A DNA stretch of 64,000 bases from an uncultured Planctomycetaceae bacterium (GTDB lineage Bacteria; Planctomycetota; Planctomycetia; Pirellulales; Pirellulaceae), in contig CAIPEB010000768.1 of the NCBI GenBank assembly GCA_903863885.1, positions 1 to 64,000 on the forward strand, in the 5' to 3' direction. A program made the translations under genes and the position numbers. Below are positions 2,379-48,926 of this stretch, piece after piece (position 1 is the first letter of the stretch; each line of letters opens with the position of its first letter). A model generated the notes under the pieces. That model was given only the letters and a program-made list of their open reading frames with translations. It was not told the origin of the DNA and made no database searches.

Positions 2379-5300
2379 CTACGTAACAGCATTACCGGCC
2401 TCTCGCAGCCTCTCCAGCCGCCTCCCGATTTCCTCACGAAGCAGCCCAAGTTCGACCGCCAGGAGTGCCAGCAGTTCGCGTCCGCCCGGCATGTCGGTTG
2501 AGTGAGCCGATGCCTCCAGGGCGACCAGAGACGATTGAGCCTTGTTTTCCGGAAAGAAACTCAGCGAACCGCGGAGTGCCCGCGCCGAGCGTTCCAGCAG
2601 CGGGGCGTCCCCGTCGTTGATCGCCTGCTGCATCTCGCTCAATCGCCGCGGCGTTTCCTCCAGAAAGACCTCAAGCACTTCGGCGAGCAGTCCGGAACGG
2701 TTCTCCACGAAACGGGCAACCTGCTCCCAATCGACTCGCTGTACTCCCTGCAGGTCCGTGAACGCGGCAGGTTCGCCCTCCGGGGGATAGAGCCGAGCGA
2801 GTTTTTCGTAGAGCAATTGCGATCGGATTGGCTTGGAAATGTAATCGTCCATGCCAGCCTCGATGCAACGCTCCCTGTCTCCCTTCATGGCGTGCGCCGT
2901 CATGGCCACGATGGGAATATGCGTGCCGGCGGCCTGTTCGCGCTCCAGACGTCGAATCAACCGCGTCGCCTGAAATCCATCCAGTTCCGGCATCTGAACG
3001 TCCATCAGCACCAGATCGAAGTGCTGAGACTGCACGGCATTCACGGCCTCCTGCCCCGTGGAAACCACCACGACGGAATGTCCGACCTTCTTCAACAGCG
3101 CCACGGCCAGCCGCTGGTTCACCAGGCTGTCTTCGGCCAGGAGCACCCGCAGCGGCCGCTCGACCAAGCCCTTGCCGTCGCCGGCATGGCCGCGCGACGC
3201 CGACTCGTCCAGATGCCCCCCCAGACTGCGCACCACGGCTCGGAAGAACTCGGTCTGGTGGACCGGTTTGAGCACGTGAGCGGCGATGTGCAGCTGTTCG
3301 CAGCGGGCCACATAGCCCGGCCGTTCGCCCGAAGTAAGCAGAATGATCGGCAGGTCGGCCAGCAGCGGATCGTTGCGGATCTGCTCGGCAAGCGAGAATC
3401 CATCCACCACCGGCATGTTGACATCGGACACAAGCAGATCGCACGGCTGCCCCTCGCGGACGGCGCGAGCCAGAAACTCCAGCGACTCCGCGGCACTCGA
3501 AGCCACGGTCACCTGCATGCCCCAGTTCTGCAGCAATTCGCACAGGATCAGTCGGCTCGTCCCATTGTCGTCGGTGACCAGAACTCGCGCATGTTCGATA
3601 ACGGCCGCCGCCGTATCCGGCTCCGCGTTCCTTGCAGCCCCGACGCCGAAATTGCAGGTGAAGTGAAAGGTGCTGCCCTTGCCCGGTTCGCTCTCGACCC
3701 AGATCCTGCCGCCCATCAGCTCGACGAGCCGGGACGCGATCGACAATCCGAGGCCTGTTCCGCCGTAGCGGCGCGTCATGGAGACGTCCGCCTGCACGAA
3801 GGCCTCGAATATGCTGGCCAGTTTTTCCGCCTGGATGCCGATCCCGGAATCCCGCACCGCGAAATGCAGTTCCACTCCGCCCTCGTCACGACGCGAAGCC
3901 TCGATCTGCAGCAGAACTTCGCCATGGTCCGTGAACTTGATGGCGTTGCCCACCAGGTTGACGATGACCTGACGCAGACGCCCCGCATCGCCGATCAGCG
4001 AACGAGGCGTTTCGTGCTCGACGCGCCAAGCCAATTCGAGATCCTTGCGGTGGGCCCGTACCGCCAGCGACTTCATCGTCGCGCCCACCGTATCGATCAG
4101 ATCAAAATCGGCGCTTTCCAATTCCAGCCTGCCGGCCTCGATCTTGGAAAAATCCAGGATGTCGTTCAGCAGCGTCAGCAGCGACTCGCCGGACTCGTGA
4201 ACCATCTGCAGATATTCGCGCTGCGAGTCGGAAAGCGGCGAGTCGAGCAGGAATTCCGAAATCCCGAGCACGGCGTTCATCGGGGTGCGGATCTCATGGC
4301 TCATGTTGGCCAGGAAATCGCTCTTCGCGCGATTGGCCGATTCGGCCGCCTCCTTGGCCTTCTGCAATTCCTGCTCGAAATGTTTGCGTTCCGTAATATC
4401 CCGGCAGATGCCGACCAGACCCTCCACGCGCCCGTTGCGGTCGCGCAGCGGAACTTTCGTGGTCAGCAGCCAGCGTTCCTCGCCGAGGAATCCGAGTCCC
4501 GCTTCCTCGCGATTGATCAGCGATTCGCCGCTATGAAGCACCGTCTGGTCGTCCGCCGCATATCGTTCCGCAAGGTGTTCCGGCCAGAACTCGCGATCCG
4601 TCTTCCCGACGATCTGATCCCAGCTTTCAGCGCCCAGATCCTTGAGCAGCGTCTTGTTGACCATCGTGAACCGGCCCGAGGCATCTTTGGCGAAAATGTA
4701 GTCGGGCAGGTTGTCGATCAGCGTCAGCAGCAGATCGCGTTCCTTCTGCAGCATCTCGTCGATGCGCTGCCGCTCGGCGATCTCGCTCCGGATTGCCTCC
4801 TCGGCCATCTTGCGATCCGTGACGTCGCGAAGAAACACGGTGAAGACCGGTTTCCCTTCAAGCGTCACGGCCTGGGTCGCCATCTCGGCAACGAATTCGG
4901 TCCCGTCCTTGCGATACGCGGGCACGTCGACGCGGCGGCCGAATATCGAACCGCCGCCGGTCCGTTCGAACCTCTGGAAACTCCTCCGCTGCCGCTCCCG
5001 CACATCGGGTGGCATGAAGAGTTCTCCCATTTCCTTGCCGATGACCTCCTCGCTGGTATACCCGAACGTCGACTCCGCCGCCGGATTGAACTGAATGACG
5101 CGTCCATCGGCGTCCATCGTAATGATGCAGTCGAGCGATGCGTTGATGATCGCGCGGATGCGGGACTCGCTCTCCCGCAGCGCCTCGCTCGCGCCGGCGG
5201 ACATCGGCGTGTACTTCTTGCGTTCAATGGCCAGTCGAATCGCGCGGAGCAGCATCTCCCCCGACATCCGGGTCTTGGAAAGCACGTCCTGGGCCCCGCA

Positions 5301-43332: not shown

Positions 43333-44463
43333 ATGAAATACCGTCGATTGGGCAGGACTGGAGTGCAGGTCTCTGCGCTCGGATTCGGGACGATGCGGCT
43401 TCCTCGCGGCAAGACGGAAGCCGATGTGAACGAAGCTGAGTCGATCGAGATGATCCGCTTCGCAATCGACCAGGGCGTGAATTACATCGACACGGCTTAC
43501 GTGTATCACGGCGGGAACAGCGAACGGATCGTTGGTTCAGCGTTGGAGGGCGATTACCGCTCGCGTGTTCACATCGCGACAAAGCTGCCGGTCTGGATGG
43601 TGAATGAGACGCGAGATTGCGATCGGCTGCTCGATGAACAGCTCACCCGGCTGCGGTGCGGCCATATCGACTTCTATCTGCTTCATTGCCTGCAGAAGAA
43701 GTCGTGGGAGAAGATGCGGGACATCGGCGTGCTGGAATGGGCGGAAAAAGCCCGCTCCGAGGGACGAATCCGCCATCTCGGGTTTTCCTTTCACGACGAT
43801 TACGACACGTTCGAGCGGATCGTCGATGAGCACGACTGGTCGGTCTGCCAGATCCAATACAACTACCTCTGCGAGGAAGTGCAGGCGGGAACGCGTGGTC
43901 TTCAATATGCCGCTTCGAAGGATCTGGGGGTGATCGTCATGGAACCGCTGTTCGGCGGAACGCTGGCGTGCCCGCCGCGACCGGCCCAGGAGATCTGGGA
44001 TTCGGTACTTGACCGTTACCGGCCGGTAGATCTGGCGCTGCAGTGGCTGTGGAATCGGCCGGAGGTGGCAACCGTGCTCAGCGGCATGAACGAGCTGAGC
44101 CAGGTGCAGGAAAACATCGCCAGCGCGAACCGATCGGGCGTCGGCACGCTCGACACGGATGCGATCGAGTTGATCCGGCGCGTCCGCGACGCCTACATGC
44201 AGCTTTCGCCGATCCCGTGCACTAAGTGCGGATACTGCCTGCCGTGCCCGCACGGAGTGAACGTCCCGCAGAATCTCGAGCTGTTCAATCACGCGACGGT
44301 GCTGAAGGGCAACAGTGCGGTCCTCTGCAAGAATCTCTATTTTGCCATGCCGGAAAACGAGCGAGCGGCGGGCTGTGTCGAATGCGGCACATGCGAAGAC
44401 CACTGCCCCCAACACATTTCAATCCGTCAGATGCTGAAGGAAGTCGACAAGACGTTTCGCTGA
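43333..44463 (+). CDS. Aldo/keto reductase with C-terminal [4Fe-4S] ferredoxin-like domain
   Basis: A 376-residue protein. Residues 1-275 are an aldo/keto reductase barrel: LGFGTMRLP, Asp/Tyr dyad in YIDTAYVYHGGNSE, the catalytic-region lysine in IATKLP, and LHCL. The C-terminus holds two cysteine clusters, IPCTKCGYCLPCPHGV and CVECGTCEDHCPQ, predicted to bind [4Fe-4S]. This AKR-plus-ferredoxin type is common in anaerobes and Planctomycetes and probably couples carbonyl reduction to an Fe-S electron carrier rather than only NADPH. It lies just before the iron locus, but a roughly 240-base structured gap separates them. Confidence 0.92.
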   Translation: MKYRRLGRTGVQVSALGFGTMRLPRGKTEADVNEAESIEMIRFAIDQGVNYIDTAYVYHGGNSERIVGSALEGDYRSRVHIATKLPVWMVNETRDCDRLLDEQLTRLRCGHIDFYLLHCLQKKSWEKMRDIGVLEWAEKARSEGRIRHLGFSFHDDYDTFERIVDEHDWSVCQIQYNYLCEEVQAGTRGLQYAASKDLGVIVMEPLFGGTLACPPRPAQEIWDSVLDRYRPVDLALQWLWNRPEVATVLSGMNELSQVQENIASANRSGVGTLDTDAIELIRRVRDAYMQLSPIPCTKCGYCLPCPHGVNVPQNLELFNHATVLKGNSAVLCKNLYFAMPENERAAGCVECGTCEDHCPQHISIRQMLKEVDKTFR

Positions 44464-44543
44464 CAACCGTCTTTTCCGGATCCGCAAGTTTTCTAGGATG
44501 CTAGGTGGGGAGCTACGGAAACGAACGCGCCGTGACGAACTCA

Positions 44544-44707: not shown

Positions 44708-45730
44708 ATGGAAAACGTTTCGTTGGTGATTCTCGCCAGCCTGACCGCGGCGCTGGTACTGCTTCCGAAATGGGGGCTCATCGCGCGCTGGCGCGAGTCG
44801 CGGCGCATGACCGAGAAGTGCCGGCGGGAGGACGCGTTGAAGTACATTCTGAAGCGGGAGGTAAACGGCCAGACGCCGACGCTGAACGGTGTCGCAGGCG
44901 CGCTGGAGATCCACTCCAACAAGGCCGCCGAACTGTTGTCCGAAATGGAACGTCGAGGTCTCATCTCGTTCGATTGCGGGCAACTGCGACTGCGGCACGC
45001 CGGCCGCGAACTGGCGCTGCACGTGATCCGCGCCCATCGATTATGGGAGAGCTATCTGGCCGATCAGACCGGTGTGGAGGAAGCCAAATGGCATCATCTC
45101 GCAGAGAGGAAAGAGCACCTGATGACGCCCGACGAGGCCGAAGAGTTGTCGGCGAGACTGGGCCATCCGGTGCGAGATCCCCACGGAGACGCAATCCCGA
45201 CAGTCGGCGAGGAACTGGCTGCCGACGCCGGCCAGTCGCTGAACTCCGCGCCGCTGAATGCGGTCATGCAGATCGAACACATCGAAGACGAACCGGAAAC
45301 CGTGTATGCCCAGCTTTCCGCAGTCGGAATTCGACCCGGCATGCGGGTCTGCGTGTTTGAAAAGAGCCCGGAGCGAATCCGATTCTGGGCCGATGGCCAG
45401 GAACATGTTTTGGCGCCGATTCTCGCCCACAACATTTCGGTGATCCCGCTTCCCGAGTCGGCCGGACAGGACTTGTTCGACGAGGAATTCCTGGCCGGGC
45501 TCAAACCCGGGCAAAACGCCCGTATTCTCGGCCTGACCACGGCCTGCCGCGGAGCGGAGCGGCGCCGGCTGCTGGACCTGGGGTTTGTCCCCGGCACTTC
45601 GATCGAAGTCGAAATGGTCAGCCCAGGCGGTGATCCCACGGCCTACCGCGTCCGGGGCACGTTGATCGCGCTGCGTCGCGAACAGGCGCGGCTTATCCGC
45701 ATCTCGACCTCGGAGGCCCAGCCGTTATGA
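44708..45730 (+). CDS. Membrane-anchored DtxR/MntR-type regulator fused to FeoA domains
   Basis: A 340-residue fusion. One hydrophobic helix (about 5-26) is followed by a DtxR-type winged helix (39-97) and metal-binding dimerisation segment: HRLWESYL, HHLAERKEHLMTPDEAEEL, LGHPVRDPHGDAIP. By alignment with DtxR the ligands are H110, E114, H129, E133, E136, H137; E133 replaces Cys102, as in MntR. Residues about 180-250 and 260-335 are two FeoA/SH3-like domains, the second canonical (LKPGQNARILGL, GAERRRLLDLGFVPGTSIEV). The stop overlaps the feoB-N start (ATGA). It likely links iron or manganese sensing to FeoB activity or transcription at the membrane. The N-terminal anchor is unusual. Confidence 0.87.
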   Translation: MENVSLVILASLTAALVLLPKWGLIARWRESRRMTEKCRREDALKYILKREVNGQTPTLNGVAGALEIHSNKAAELLSEMERRGLISFDCGQLRLRHAGRELALHVIRAHRLWESYLADQTGVEEAKWHHLAERKEHLMTPDEAEELSARLGHPVRDPHGDAIPTVGEELAADAGQSLNSAPLNAVMQIEHIEDEPETVYAQLSAVGIRPGMRVCVFEKSPERIRFWADGQEHVLAPILAHNISVIPLPESAGQDLFDEEFLAGLKPGQNARILGLTTACRGAERRRLLDLGFVPGTSIEVEMVSPGGDPTAYRVRGTLIALRREQARLIRISTSEAQPL

Positions 45731-46563
45731 GCGAGACAAATCCAATGCCGAATGGTGCCGGAACCGCATGCGGCTCGTGCAGCCTCAATCGTGCGGCGAA
45801 CTTGAAAAGACTCGGCGTCACGATGGATGACTGGGACTATGTTGTCGCGCTGGCCGGCAATCCGAACGTGGGAAAAAGCACGGTATTCAACTCGCTGACC
45901 GGCCTGCGCCAACACACGGGCAACTGGCCGGGAAAGACCGTTTCGCGAGCGGAAGGAGGCTTCGAATTTGCGGGCAAGCGGTTCAAGCTGGTAGACCTGC
46001 CGGGCACCTACTCGCTGCTGTCGACCAGCCTCGACGAGGAGATCGCCCGCGACTTTATCCTGTTCGGACGTCCCGACGTCACGCTCGTTCTGGTCGACGC
46101 CACGCGGCTGGAGCGAAACCTGAACCTCGTCCTGCAGGTGCTCGAAATCACCGACCGCGCTGTGGTCTGCGTGAACATGGTTGACGAAGCACGGCGGCAT
46201 GGCATGACTGTGGACGATCGTCAACTCGCACGCGATCTGGGAGTTCCGGTGATACCGGCAGCAGCGCGATTCGGACGCGGTATACCTGAAGTGCTGCAGG
46301 CGATCAGCGACGTGGCGACCGGGAAGTTTGAATGCAGGCCGCATCGTTTGCACAACGAGCCGCCCGCGATTCGCAGATCGCTCAACGAACTTGTAACGAG
46401 AATCCAGGATATGTATCCGGACCTCCCCAACGCACGATGGGTCGCGATGCGTCTCCTGGCCGGCGACGATCACGTCCATGCCGCCTTGCGCAACGGCGAT
46501 CTGGGAAGCGCCGGCATGCACGGTGCGACGGGCGGCCGAACGGAGAGCGGCAGAGCCGTGTAG
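45727..46563 (+). CDS. feoB: FeoB N-terminal part: G domain plus GDI domain
   Basis: A 278-residue protein equal to the cytosolic part of FeoB, the ferrous iron transporter. A Cys-containing N-terminal extension (CGSC) precedes the G domain: G1 GNPNVGKS (44-51), G2 T71, G3 DLPG (90-93), G4 NMVD (150-153), a G5-like AAARFGRG, and the GDI helical region RWVAMRLLAGDDHVHAALRNGDL. It ends with MHGATGGRTESGRAV and a stop where intact FeoB would continue to the membrane part. That part is in another frame starting 80 bases later. Start overlaps the DtxR-FeoA stop. It is either a naturally split FeoB or a frameshifted gene. Confidence 0.88.
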   Translation: MSETNPMPNGAGTACGSCSLNRAANLKRLGVTMDDWDYVVALAGNPNVGKSTVFNSLTGLRQHTGNWPGKTVSRAEGGFEFAGKRFKLVDLPGTYSLLSTSLDEEIARDFILFGRPDVTLVLVDATRLERNLNLVLQVLEITDRAVVCVNMVDEARRHGMTVDDRQLARDLGVPVIPAAARFGRGIPEVLQAISDVATGKFECRPHRLHNEPPAIRRSLNELVTRIQDMYPDLPNARWVAMRLLAGDDHVHAALRNGDLGSAGMHGATGGRTESGRAV

Positions 46564-46642: not shown

Positions 46643-48088
46643 ATGAACGCAGACCAAGCGGATGCCGGTGCGGAATCCCCGGCGGAAGACATTCTGAGAA
46701 CTGCCCAGCGGCTTCGCCAAGGCATCACCGGCGACCTGCACGAATACTGGGTGGAGGCGATTTACGCTGATGCCGCCCGCATCGCGGACCGCGCGGTCTC
46801 CCGCCCGGAAAAAAAAGCACGCCCCACGTGGGATCGCACCATCGACCGCATCGTGACAAGCCGCCTCTGGGGTTTCCCCATCATGGCTGTGCTGTTTACG
46901 GGAATGTTCTGGATCACCATTTCCGGTGCCAACATTCCGTCGGGCTGGATCTCGAATCTGCTGATCGACAGAATCTGTCCGCTCCTTCGACAATCTGCCG
47001 ACGCGGTGGGCTTTCCCTGGTGGCTCAAGGGGCTGTTGGTGGACGGGATCTACCTGTGCACGGCGTGGATCATCGCCGTGATGCTGCCGCCGATGGCAAT
47101 CTTTTTTCCGCTCTTCACCATCCTCGAGGATTACGGCTATTTGCCGCGTGTGGCATTCAACCTGGATAACCTGTTTCGGAAGGCGGGTGCTCACGGCAAG
47201 CAATCGATGAGCATGATGATGGGCTTCGGCTGCAATTCGGCAGGTGTCGTCGCCACGCGGATCATCGACAGCCCGCGCGAGAGGCTGATCGCCATCCTCA
47301 CCAACAACTTCGCGTTGTGCAATGGTCGCTGGCCCACGCAGTTCCTCATCGCCTCGGTCTTCATCGGGTCGCTGGTGCCGGCCTACCTCGCGGGATTCGT
47401 GGCCGCAGCCTCGGTCACGGGCATCGCGATGCTGGGCGTTGCAGCGACGTTCGTTATCTCGTGGCTGCTGTCCCGATCGGTGCTCAAGGGCGAAGTCTCG
47501 ACATTCAGCCTCGAACTTCCGCCGTATCGGCCGCCGCGGATCTGGCAAGCGATCTACACCTCGCTGCTCGACCGCACCCTGTTCGTGCTCTGGCGAGCGA
47601 TCGTGTTCGCCGTTCCGGCCGGCGCAGTGATCTGGCTCAGCGCGAATCTGAGCATCGGCGGGCAGAGCATCGCGGAACACTTCGTCAATCTGCTGAACCC
47701 GATCGGTCTGCTGATCGGATTGAATGGCGTCATCCTGTTCGCCTACGTTGTGGCGATTCCCGCAAACGAGATCGTCATCCCCACGATCCTGATGCTCACC
47801 GTGCTGACCACCGGTTCAACCGCAATGGGGCAGGGGGCAGGCGTCCTGTTCGAGATCCAATCCGAGGGAGCGCTGCGTGAATTGCTGCACTCCGGCGGGT
47901 GGACCCTGCTCACCGCCGTGAACCTGATGCTGTTCAGCCTGCTCCATAATCCGTGCAGCACGACGATCTACACGATCTACCGCGAAACGGGCAGTGCCCG
48001 ATGGACGGCCATCGCCACGCTGCTGCCCCTGGCCATGGGGTTCGCCGTCACGTTCACGGTCGCTGCGATCTGGCGCATGTTCACCTGA
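46643..48088 (+). CDS. feoB: FeoB C-terminal part: membrane transporter domain
   Basis: A 481-residue membrane protein. Residues 15-55 ([39 protein letters not shown]) continue the GDI/linker helices of FeoB, then about eight to nine membrane helices follow with FeoB core motifs: [24 protein letters not shown] (Gate I, conserved Cys) and [15 protein letters not shown]. No good ribosome site precedes ATG 46643, and the same frame has a stop at 46628, so translation probably depends on the upstream gene. The Gate motifs vary from the usual GCNVPGI and SCSARLP. It forms the iron channel with the G-domain protein. Confidence 0.88.
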
Positions 48089-48134
48089 ACCAGGCGGCAT
48101 ATTTTCGAGCGACGCACTTCGGAGATTCCGCAAG

Positions 48135-48926
48135 ATGAGAGTCGGATACGTTCAATTTGCTCCCTCGCTCGGAGACCTGGACGCGACACTCGGCAACCTG
48201 GAAGAACTGCTGCCGCGCGTCATGCCCGCCGACCTGATCGTGCTCCCCGAACTCTGCAACTCGGGCTACAACTTTGCCAGCCGCGAGCAGGCTATATCGA
48301 CAGCCGAACAGATCACCGACAGCAGCTTTATCGCATTCCTCGCGGAGCATTGCCGAAAGCGGCGATGCCACATCGTTTCGGGATTCAACGAGCGCGAAGG
48401 CGAACGTCTGTACAACTCGGCCGTGTTCGTGGGACCAAGCGGCTGCAGCGGCCTCTATCGCAAGCTGCATCTGTTCTATCGTGAACAGGATTTTTTCGAA
48501 CCTGGCAACGTCGGACTGCCTGTGTTCGAATGCGGTCCCGCGAAGATCGGCATACAGGTCTGCTTCGACTGGCTGTTTCCCGAATCGTGGCGAGTGCTGG
48601 CAATCCAGTCGGCCGATATCATCTGCCATCCCTGCAATCTCGTGCTGCCCGGCATGTGCCAGCGCGCGATTCCCATCCATGCGATGATCAACCGATTCTA
48701 CATCGTGACAGCAAACCGGGTGGGGAGCGAGGGAGACCTGTCGTTCACCGGAGCATCGCTGATTGCGTCTCCACGCGGCGAAGTCCTGACTCAAGGGCCC
48801 CCGGATACCGCGCACGTTTCGGTCGTGGACGTGGACCTGAGTCGCTCGCGCGACAAACAGATCACGCCGATGAACCACCTGATCCAATGCCGCAGACCGG
48901 ATCAGTACGGACTGCTGACGGAGTGA
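48135..48926 (+). CDS. Carbon-nitrogen hydrolase (nitrilase superfamily)
   Basis: A 263-residue cytoplasmic amidase-type enzyme. ATG 48135 follows GGAG by about 10 bases; the frame upstream overlaps feoB and is rejected. The Glu-Lys-Cys triad is present: ILPELCNSGYNF style Glu (VLPELCNSG), Lys in LYRKLHLF and nucleophile Cys in IQVCFDWLFPESWR. The overall pattern resembles N-carbamoylputrescine amidase/omega-amidase-like branches. Located 46 bases after feoB on the same strand, it may be cotranscribed, but no functional link to iron is evident. Confidence 0.9.
   Translation: MRVGYVQFAPSLGDLDATLGNLEELLPRVMPADLIVLPELCNSGYNFASREQAISTAEQITDSSFIAFLAEHCRKRRCHIVSGFNEREGERLYNSAVFVGPSGCSGLYRKLHLFYREQDFFEPGNVGLPVFECGPAKIGIQVCFDWLFPESWRVLAIQSADIICHPCNLVLPGMCQRAIPIHAMINRFYIVTANRVGSEGDLSFTGASLIASPRGEVLTQGPPDTAHVSVVDVDLSRSRDKQITPMNHLIQCRRPDQYGLLTE

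Follow-up and report, generated by a model that had tools for sequence, protein, structure and literature searches.

Within the window, by which we mean the whole stretch of 64,000 nucleotides that was analysed, a gene for 340 amino acids joins a predicted membrane helix, a DtxR/MntR core and a FeoA domain in one polypeptide and overlaps the first of two genes that between them encode the parts of a FeoB. The features of this locus are:

44708..45730, + strand: whole membrane DtxR-FeoA gene (membrane helix, DtxR/MntR core, FeoA; 340 aa), delimited by open reading frame, Pfam, AlphaFold2 and superposition
44711..44761, + strand: predicted membrane helix at the N-terminus (residues 2-18), with P-x-x-G and a basic junction after it (AlphaFold2, family alignment)
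44828..44992, + strand: degenerate winged helix, residues 41-95, with its recognition helix at 69-83 and the metal ligand D42 at its start
44996..45202, + strand: metal-binding/dimerisation domain, residues 97-165, with H110, E114, H129, E133, E136 and H137
45239..45451, + strand: SH3-like third DtxR domain (the 'first FeoA'), approximately residues 178-248, with H191 and D194 invariant and E195 nearly invariant
45485..45712, + strand: true FeoA domain, residues 260-335 (Pfam, superposition)
45727..45730, + strand: ATGA overlap between the stop of the membrane DtxR-FeoA gene and the start of the FeoB G-protein gene
45727..46563, + strand: separate FeoB G protein, 278 aa (PF02421, 198.4 bits), with P-loop GNPNVGKS and a CxxC at approximately 45769-45780
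46643..48088, + strand: separate FeoB membrane part, 481 aa (Gate PF07670, 91.9 bits; FeoB_C PF07664, 48.3 bits), with two gate motifs of 10 and 13 residues

An aldo/keto reductase carrying a 4Fe-4S region at its C-terminus (43333-44463, + strand) lies just 5' of the membrane DtxR-FeoA gene, and a carbon-nitrogen hydrolase (48132-48926) directly 3' of the FeoB membrane gene.

The membrane DtxR-FeoA reading frame starts with ATG, with GGGAG seven bases 5' of it. Its AlphaFold2 model, built from 79 family rows (pLDDT 95.4, pTM 0.89), runs from the helix at residues 2-18 through a long helix (24-52), a winged helix and a dimerisation domain to two SH3-like domains. Deinococcus radiodurans MntR (5zr6_B) superposes on residues 39-248 (Z 23.5, 1.8 Å over 206, 25% identity), with Foldseek giving the same result for the DtxR part, and FeoA (7r7b_A) superposes on residues 260-335 (Z 14.4, 1.4 Å over 74). 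Pfam matched Fe_dep_repr_C (PF02742) at residues 98-165 (76.3 bits, cut-off 27) and FeoA at residues 262-332 plus a second, weak copy, and found neither PF01325, the DtxR DNA-binding family, nor an ABC-3 permease domain in the polypeptide. The weak copy falls in the third domain at 22 bits, below the 23-bit cut-off, and Pfam FeoA matches the third domain of all 10 soluble DtxRs scanned as well, which rules out two added FeoA domains. The protein is a membrane helix followed by a complete three-domain DtxR and one extra FeoA, and its Fe_dep_repr_C domain, three-domain fold and primary metal ligands make it a member of the DtxR/MntR superfamily. Among named NCBIfam families, those of the MntR and DtxR regulators come closest, with both scoring far below their cut-offs, so that a name borrowed from such a match could mislead. 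The preliminary description of this gene, made from the letters alone, had listed a predicted N-terminal membrane helix, a DtxR winged helix, two FeoA domains and an overlap with feoB. The helix is borne out by the model; the winged-helix fold is likewise present in the superposition, but it is unmatched by PF01325 and its recognition helix and wing are degenerate; of the two FeoA domains one is genuine (260-335), the other being the normal third domain of a DtxR; and the overlap is real, except that feoB comprises two reading frames rather than one.

GTDB species genomes scanned with five full-length members yielded at least 558 relatives, from which we fetched the best 80; counts over these best 80 differ in scope from counts over all relatives. 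Their record titles span approximately 9 to 11 phyla depending on the taxonomy used, with MAG labels being fallible, and among the best 80 name Verrucomicrobia, Planctomycetes, Chloroflexi, Bacteroidetes, Ignavibacteria, Balneolales, Calditrichaeota, Acidobacteria, Gemmatimonadota, Omnitrophota and a Methylococcaceae. Protein length was 331-389 aa in 77 of the best 80 (the others being L063, which is cut, L045, 329 aa at a contig edge, and L081, 317 aa). The family alignment has 79 rows, P0001 together with the 78 loci that remain when L051 and L063 are set aside, and every one of these members carries PF02742. Only 4 of 397 genomes in the host's class encode the protein. In the phylum of Maribacter it was found in 26 of 198 genomes, and in every case the N-terminus is hydrophobic and a FeoB G-protein gene lies within 100 bp; the phylum as delimited here includes an Ignavibacteria genome, and three of the 26 (G440, G447 and G456) overlap with the earlier family set. 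A survey of the fusion across genomes, proposed at the outset, thus returned what is, judged by sequence, one coherent family across many bacterial groups.

The membrane anchor was scored as a helix of mean hydropathy of at least 1.6 within the first 41 residues, and soluble paralogues from the same genomes served for comparison (41 of the 80 genomes, 30 loci returned and 26 rows kept; L145 and L150, the family protein itself, and L161 and L162, without a reading frame, were left out). An N-terminal hydrophobic helix was present in 76 of the 79 family rows from the best 80 relatives, the exceptions being L045 (1.59), L107 (1.42) and L081 (none), whilst none of the 26 soluble paralogues reached 1.6 (highest 1.56). 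P20 is kept in 77 and G23 in 75 of the same 79 rows. In the 76 helix-bearing rows, lysine plus arginine averaged 0.08 ahead of the helix and 5.72 across the 20 residues that follow, which places the sensor in the cytosol. These observations support the N-terminal helix as a predicted membrane tether with a cytosolic sensor. An internal ATG at M34 speaks for an annotation artefact in which the true start lies after the helix, one of the two circumstances named at the outset as refuting the membrane reading; such a start is very unlikely in view of the conservation of the helix, P20 and G23. Two proteins, L005 and L081, start almost at the winged helix with no clear membrane helix, so that the anchor can be absent; L081 nevertheless has a split FeoB, and L005 lies outside the 79 rows.

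The FeoB domain set, the FeoB_N G domain and Gate/FeoB_C, is present at the window locus in two polypeptides, and this arrangement recurs. A FeoB G-protein gene lies directly 3' of the membrane DtxR-FeoA gene at 79 of the best 80 loci, with a spacing of approximately -67 to +192 bp, and the one locus where none is visible, L045, is at a contig edge. The G and membrane parts are in different reading frames at 61 of 75 of these loci, as in the window, and in one at 14, two of which are cut by contig ends. From P-loop to stop, the separate G proteins measure 222-244 aa in all 60 cases, including the 235 aa of the window, and this constancy identifies the split as a stable gene boundary. The recurrence of the split and the constant length together rule out a sequencing frameshift in feoB, the second form that an annotation artefact could take, and with the conserved helix they leave either form extremely improbable.

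The partner is also a distinct type of FeoB. Among 76 membrane parts from the window and the best-80 loci, 72 carry CNGRWP, mostly as NNF[A/S]LCNGRWPTQ; it is missing in three short reads (80, 130 and 310 aa) and in L104 (487 aa). A CxxC precedes the P-loop in 74 of 76 G proteins and is missing in two. The ordinary FeoBs of the host's class (15 read, L176-L190) have the gate SCSARLPVY or SCSARMPVY, as against CNGRWPTQ in the partner type. Some FeoB match at E 1e-20 was found in 343 of the 397 class genomes, and a CNGRWPTQ-type membrane part, 62-71% identical to that of the window, in exactly the four that encode membrane DtxR-FeoA; outside those four, the best FeoB-membrane matches were at E 1.3e-40 (a fragment in G275) and then 2.8e-36 and above. 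The G275 fragment (L191, contig C74, 5519-5836) is a lone piece of FeoB membrane part, 65% identical over 106 aa and possibly a decayed locus; the 7 kb read there contain neither a G protein nor a regulator-like gene. A PDB sequence search with the window's FeoB membrane part (46643-48088) gave no match. Across 64 loci, pairwise distances of membrane DtxR-FeoA correlated with those of the FeoB G protein (r 0.64) and of the FeoB membrane part (r 0.68; maximum after shuffling 0.12), a correlation that may reflect joint inheritance alone. By gene order and co-occurrence, membrane DtxR-FeoA is linked near-obligately to one distinct FeoB type, and the link to FeoB proposed in the preliminary description thereby gains support.

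The metal site is strongly fixed. D42, H110, E114, H129, E136, H137, H191 and D194 are identical in all 79 family rows from the best 80 relatives, and position 133 is Glu in 60 and Asp in 19. Primary ligands are reported as M10/C102/E105/H106 in DtxR and D8/E99/E102/H103 in Bacillus subtilis MntR, in the available text of the source (PMC4805248). The site had been described as MntR-like on account of Glu133, and indeed all ligands are present, but Glu133 itself is nothing special: the equivalent residue is Glu in 21 of the 26 same-genome soluble paralogues, 21 of which also have the D42 equivalent, and in 22 of 23 soluble DtxRs of the host's order, so that it is ruled out as a mark of MntR. 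The bound metal may be Fe(II) and/or Mn(II), the ligands being MntR-like, yet those of the soluble paralogues likewise. His166, Asp169 and Glu170 of Porphyromonas gingivalis MntR (PgMntR) are named as potential ligands, and Glu11 as the site-A ligand of B. subtilis MntR, in that source (PMC4805248). By spacing, H191, D194 and E195 match the PgMntR residues, and Lys45, present in all 79 family rows, falls at the place of Glu11, so that a two-metal site of the B. subtilis type is unlikely to be complete. His at 191 occurs in none of the 26 soluble paralogues compared with 79 of 79 family rows. A second metal site is probably formed around H110, E114, H129, H191 and D194-E195, an assignment that follows the numbering of the second site in DtxR. 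The suggestion that the protein could sense metal at the membrane is upheld as far as sequence reaches, by the tether, the cytosolic position of the sensor and the intact MntR-like site.

The surface with which a DtxR would read DNA has fared differently. For this comparison, which rests on conservation, we set 41 family rows against the 26 soluble same-genome rows. Pairwise identity was lower in the family than among the soluble proteins for the recognition helix (0.28 vs 0.46) and the wing (0.16 vs 0.45), and higher for the first helix (0.69 vs 0.56), the dimerisation domain (0.61 vs 0.54) and residues 150-165 (0.75 vs 0.65); over the whole winged helix there was no difference (0.41 vs 0.43). 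Thr or Ser occupies position 74 in 25 of 26 soluble rows and 9 of 41 family rows, and Tyr90 and Gly92, each present in 25 of 26 soluble rows, are not conserved in the family (7 of the 41 rows keep Gly92). Residues 41-95 carried a mean net charge of -2.98 in 42 family rows and +0.42 in the 26 soluble rows. At E 0.01, 6 of the 79 family members from the best 80 matched PF01325 (best 0.00018), as against all 10 soluble DtxRs scanned, which exceeded the cut-off with 51-71 bits. The DNA-reading surface thus seems, by its conservation pattern, to have been lost, although a degenerate recognition helix and wing do not prove loss of DNA binding, and the winged-helix fold is intact.

The features of the winged helix bear on whether the protein could be a repressor of its own feo operon, tethered or proteolytically released. 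Two published systems would be precedents: PgMntR binds the P1 promoter of its FB2 operon in vitro at approximately 700-1000 nM, also without metal (PMC4805248, in part), and YtgR of Chlamydia is cleaved off the YtgC-YtgR fusion and represses with Fe(II), such fusions being reported from 11 phyla in the accessible text of PMC5599777. The complete DtxR fold and metal site are compatible with this role, and so is the finding that, of the DtxR-type proteins in the window genome, this one alone exceeds the cut-off. Set against it are the degenerate, acidic recognition helix and wing relative to the same-genome soluble paralogues, the loss of the PF01325 match in most members and the yield of an operator search upstream of the gene, which gave only two weak inverted repeats, a 12-nt one (83%; 44446-44476) and a palindrome of 9 nt (44474-44487), both located where the preceding gene ends. 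Furthermore, a soluble DtxR gene (open frame of 217-256 aa) lies directly 5' on the same strand at 24 of the 74 best-80 loci whose upstream sequence extends to 770 bp or more, which gives DNA control a protein of its own at those 24; it is absent at the other 50, and the window genome is likewise among those without one. A further PF02742 match was present in 35 of 41 genomes tested, with permease fusions and fragments counted in, and the window genome encodes one Fur protein, which also weighs against the repressor role. We regard a DNA-binding repressor as unlikely, and it keeps some weight because of PgMntR, YtgC-YtgR, the intact winged helix and the two members with no clear anchor. The claim that the protein acts on DNA finds no support here, so that action on DNA and FeoB at once, as first proposed, is only half plausible: the link to FeoB holds, whilst the DNA surface is degenerate, acidic and mostly unmatched by PF01325. 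The window genome contains in addition a second, ordinary feo operon (L193, G000:C597:84500-89500, reading frames 2095-2367 and 2423-4666), with a FeoA of 90 aa and a one-piece FeoB of 747 aa bearing the gate SCSARLPVY.

An origin for the anchor is suggested by ABC-3 permease-DtxR fusions. A profile of the helix region matched 16 of 22 such planctomycete fusions and left six unmatched, and in all 16 it matched best at the final permease helix, just ahead of the DtxR domain (lowest E 2.9e-7 for 1000 sequences; 13 at or below 0.01 and three above). Against 76 FeoB membrane parts it found no credible match (two hits, E 12 and 140), and the window genome has no ABC-3 permease at E 0.01. In a tree of the DtxR part (89 rows: 27 family, 22 fusion, 40 soluble, with four soluble rows lost at trimming), the anchored family (99/98), the permease fusions (99/89) and the soluble proteins (100/99) form three separate groups; the tree is unrooted and has few columns, its bootstrap is unsettled and it does not give the order of origin. 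Membrane DtxR-FeoA is likely, on this resemblance of the helix, to have descended from a permease-DtxR fusion. The winged helix of the 22 fusions (L006-L021, L024-L027, L029 and L030) also lacks a recognition helix of the soluble type, and these proteins may be transport sensors rather than cleavable repressors.

Taken together, we consider it reasonably probable that membrane DtxR-FeoA is a metal sensor derived from a DtxR and anchored in the membrane, which recruits its FeoB and gates it; its target would thus probably be the importer and not genes. The N-terminal helix would fasten this DtxR/MntR-derived subunit to the cytoplasmic membrane and leave its sensor on the cytosolic side, where the DtxR core would bind incoming Fe(II) and/or Mn(II) at D42/E133/E136/H137 and probably a second metal at H110/E114/H129/H191/D194-E195. 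The C-terminal FeoA would contact the separate FeoB G protein and set it on the FeoB membrane part, a contact that would parallel that of FeoA in the Bacteroides fragilis FeoAB, where it is fused to the FeoB G domain and stabilises the GTP form (PMC8980893, in the portion available). Metal occupancy of the DtxR core would then alter the contact between FeoA and G protein, such that uptake is lowered when cytosolic metal is sufficient. Feedback inhibition as the sign of control is a guess that we put forward tentatively; the accessible text of a review presents substrate feedback as a widespread feature of metal transporters (PMC10710835).

A purely structural role, in which FeoA anchors the separate G protein and the DtxR core is a non-regulating metallochaperone or structural site, would also suit the conserved membrane helix, the frequently split FeoB and a FeoA domain encoded beside the FeoB G protein. 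Nonetheless, the sensor residues are invariant, and the protein is still kept at the 14 of 75 best-80 loci with a one-piece FeoB, where docking is unneeded; we therefore hold this role to be quite improbable. For the metal-sensing subunit, a broader proposal stands at about an even chance: a distinct and widespread Feo class may exist, in which a former DtxR, now without a DNA role and anchored by a permease-fusion helix, serves as the metal-sensing, G-protein-holding subunit of a CNGRWPTQ-bearing, CxxC-bearing and mostly split FeoB. If true, this would clearly exemplify the conversion of a transcription factor into a subunit of a transporter. Membrane DtxR-FeoA loci bear on two open questions, FeoB gating and the role of FeoA, the relation of FeoA to FeoB being called enigmatic (PMC8980893) and the roles of Feo components poorly understood (PMC10353542) in the portions of these sources available. 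Since such loci make the G protein apart from the channel and build FeoA into a metal sensor, docking, GTP state and metal feedback become separately testable, partly with soluble proteins.

In relation to known systems, twin-FeoA DtxRs, permease-DtxR fusions and FeoAB fusions have all been described, and a search of one open-access library found no description of a membrane-anchored DtxR-FeoA, a degenerate DNA surface, the FeoB-type linkage or the FeoB splitting. The closest characterised relative is the soluble PgMntR (PG1044), a DtxR with two C-terminal FeoA domains whose gene shares its operon with FB2, a FeoB-type manganese transporter, according to the available text of PMC4805248. By that published layout, the domain order after the helix is shared, a DtxR core with a second C-terminal FeoA, Asp19, Glu111 and His112 correspond to D42, E136 and H137, and linkage to FeoB is common to both. 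PgMntR differs in having Cys108 where the anchored family has Glu or Asp, and in having no membrane helix, for which there is no room since its DNA-binding domain starts at residue 13; such a helix is predicted in the window protein and in the great majority of best-80 family rows. The ABC-3 permease-DtxR fusions resemble membrane DtxR-FeoA in their membrane-attached DtxR, in the last permease helix that its anchor recalls and, among the planctomycete fusions, in the winged helix, whereas membrane DtxR-FeoA has no permease, has FeoA, is partnered with FeoB rather than an ABC transporter and forms a separate group in the tree. FeoAB likewise couples FeoA to the FeoB G protein but has FeoA fused to FeoB itself and lacks a DtxR core, and the study that describes it set FeoA-DtxR fusions aside from its survey (PMC8980893). 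With the soluble MntR, DtxR and IdeR proteins (5zr6, 7b1y, 1c0w), membrane DtxR-FeoA shares the three-domain fold and the primary metal site, to which it adds a predicted membrane helix, an extra FeoA and a degenerate DNA surface.
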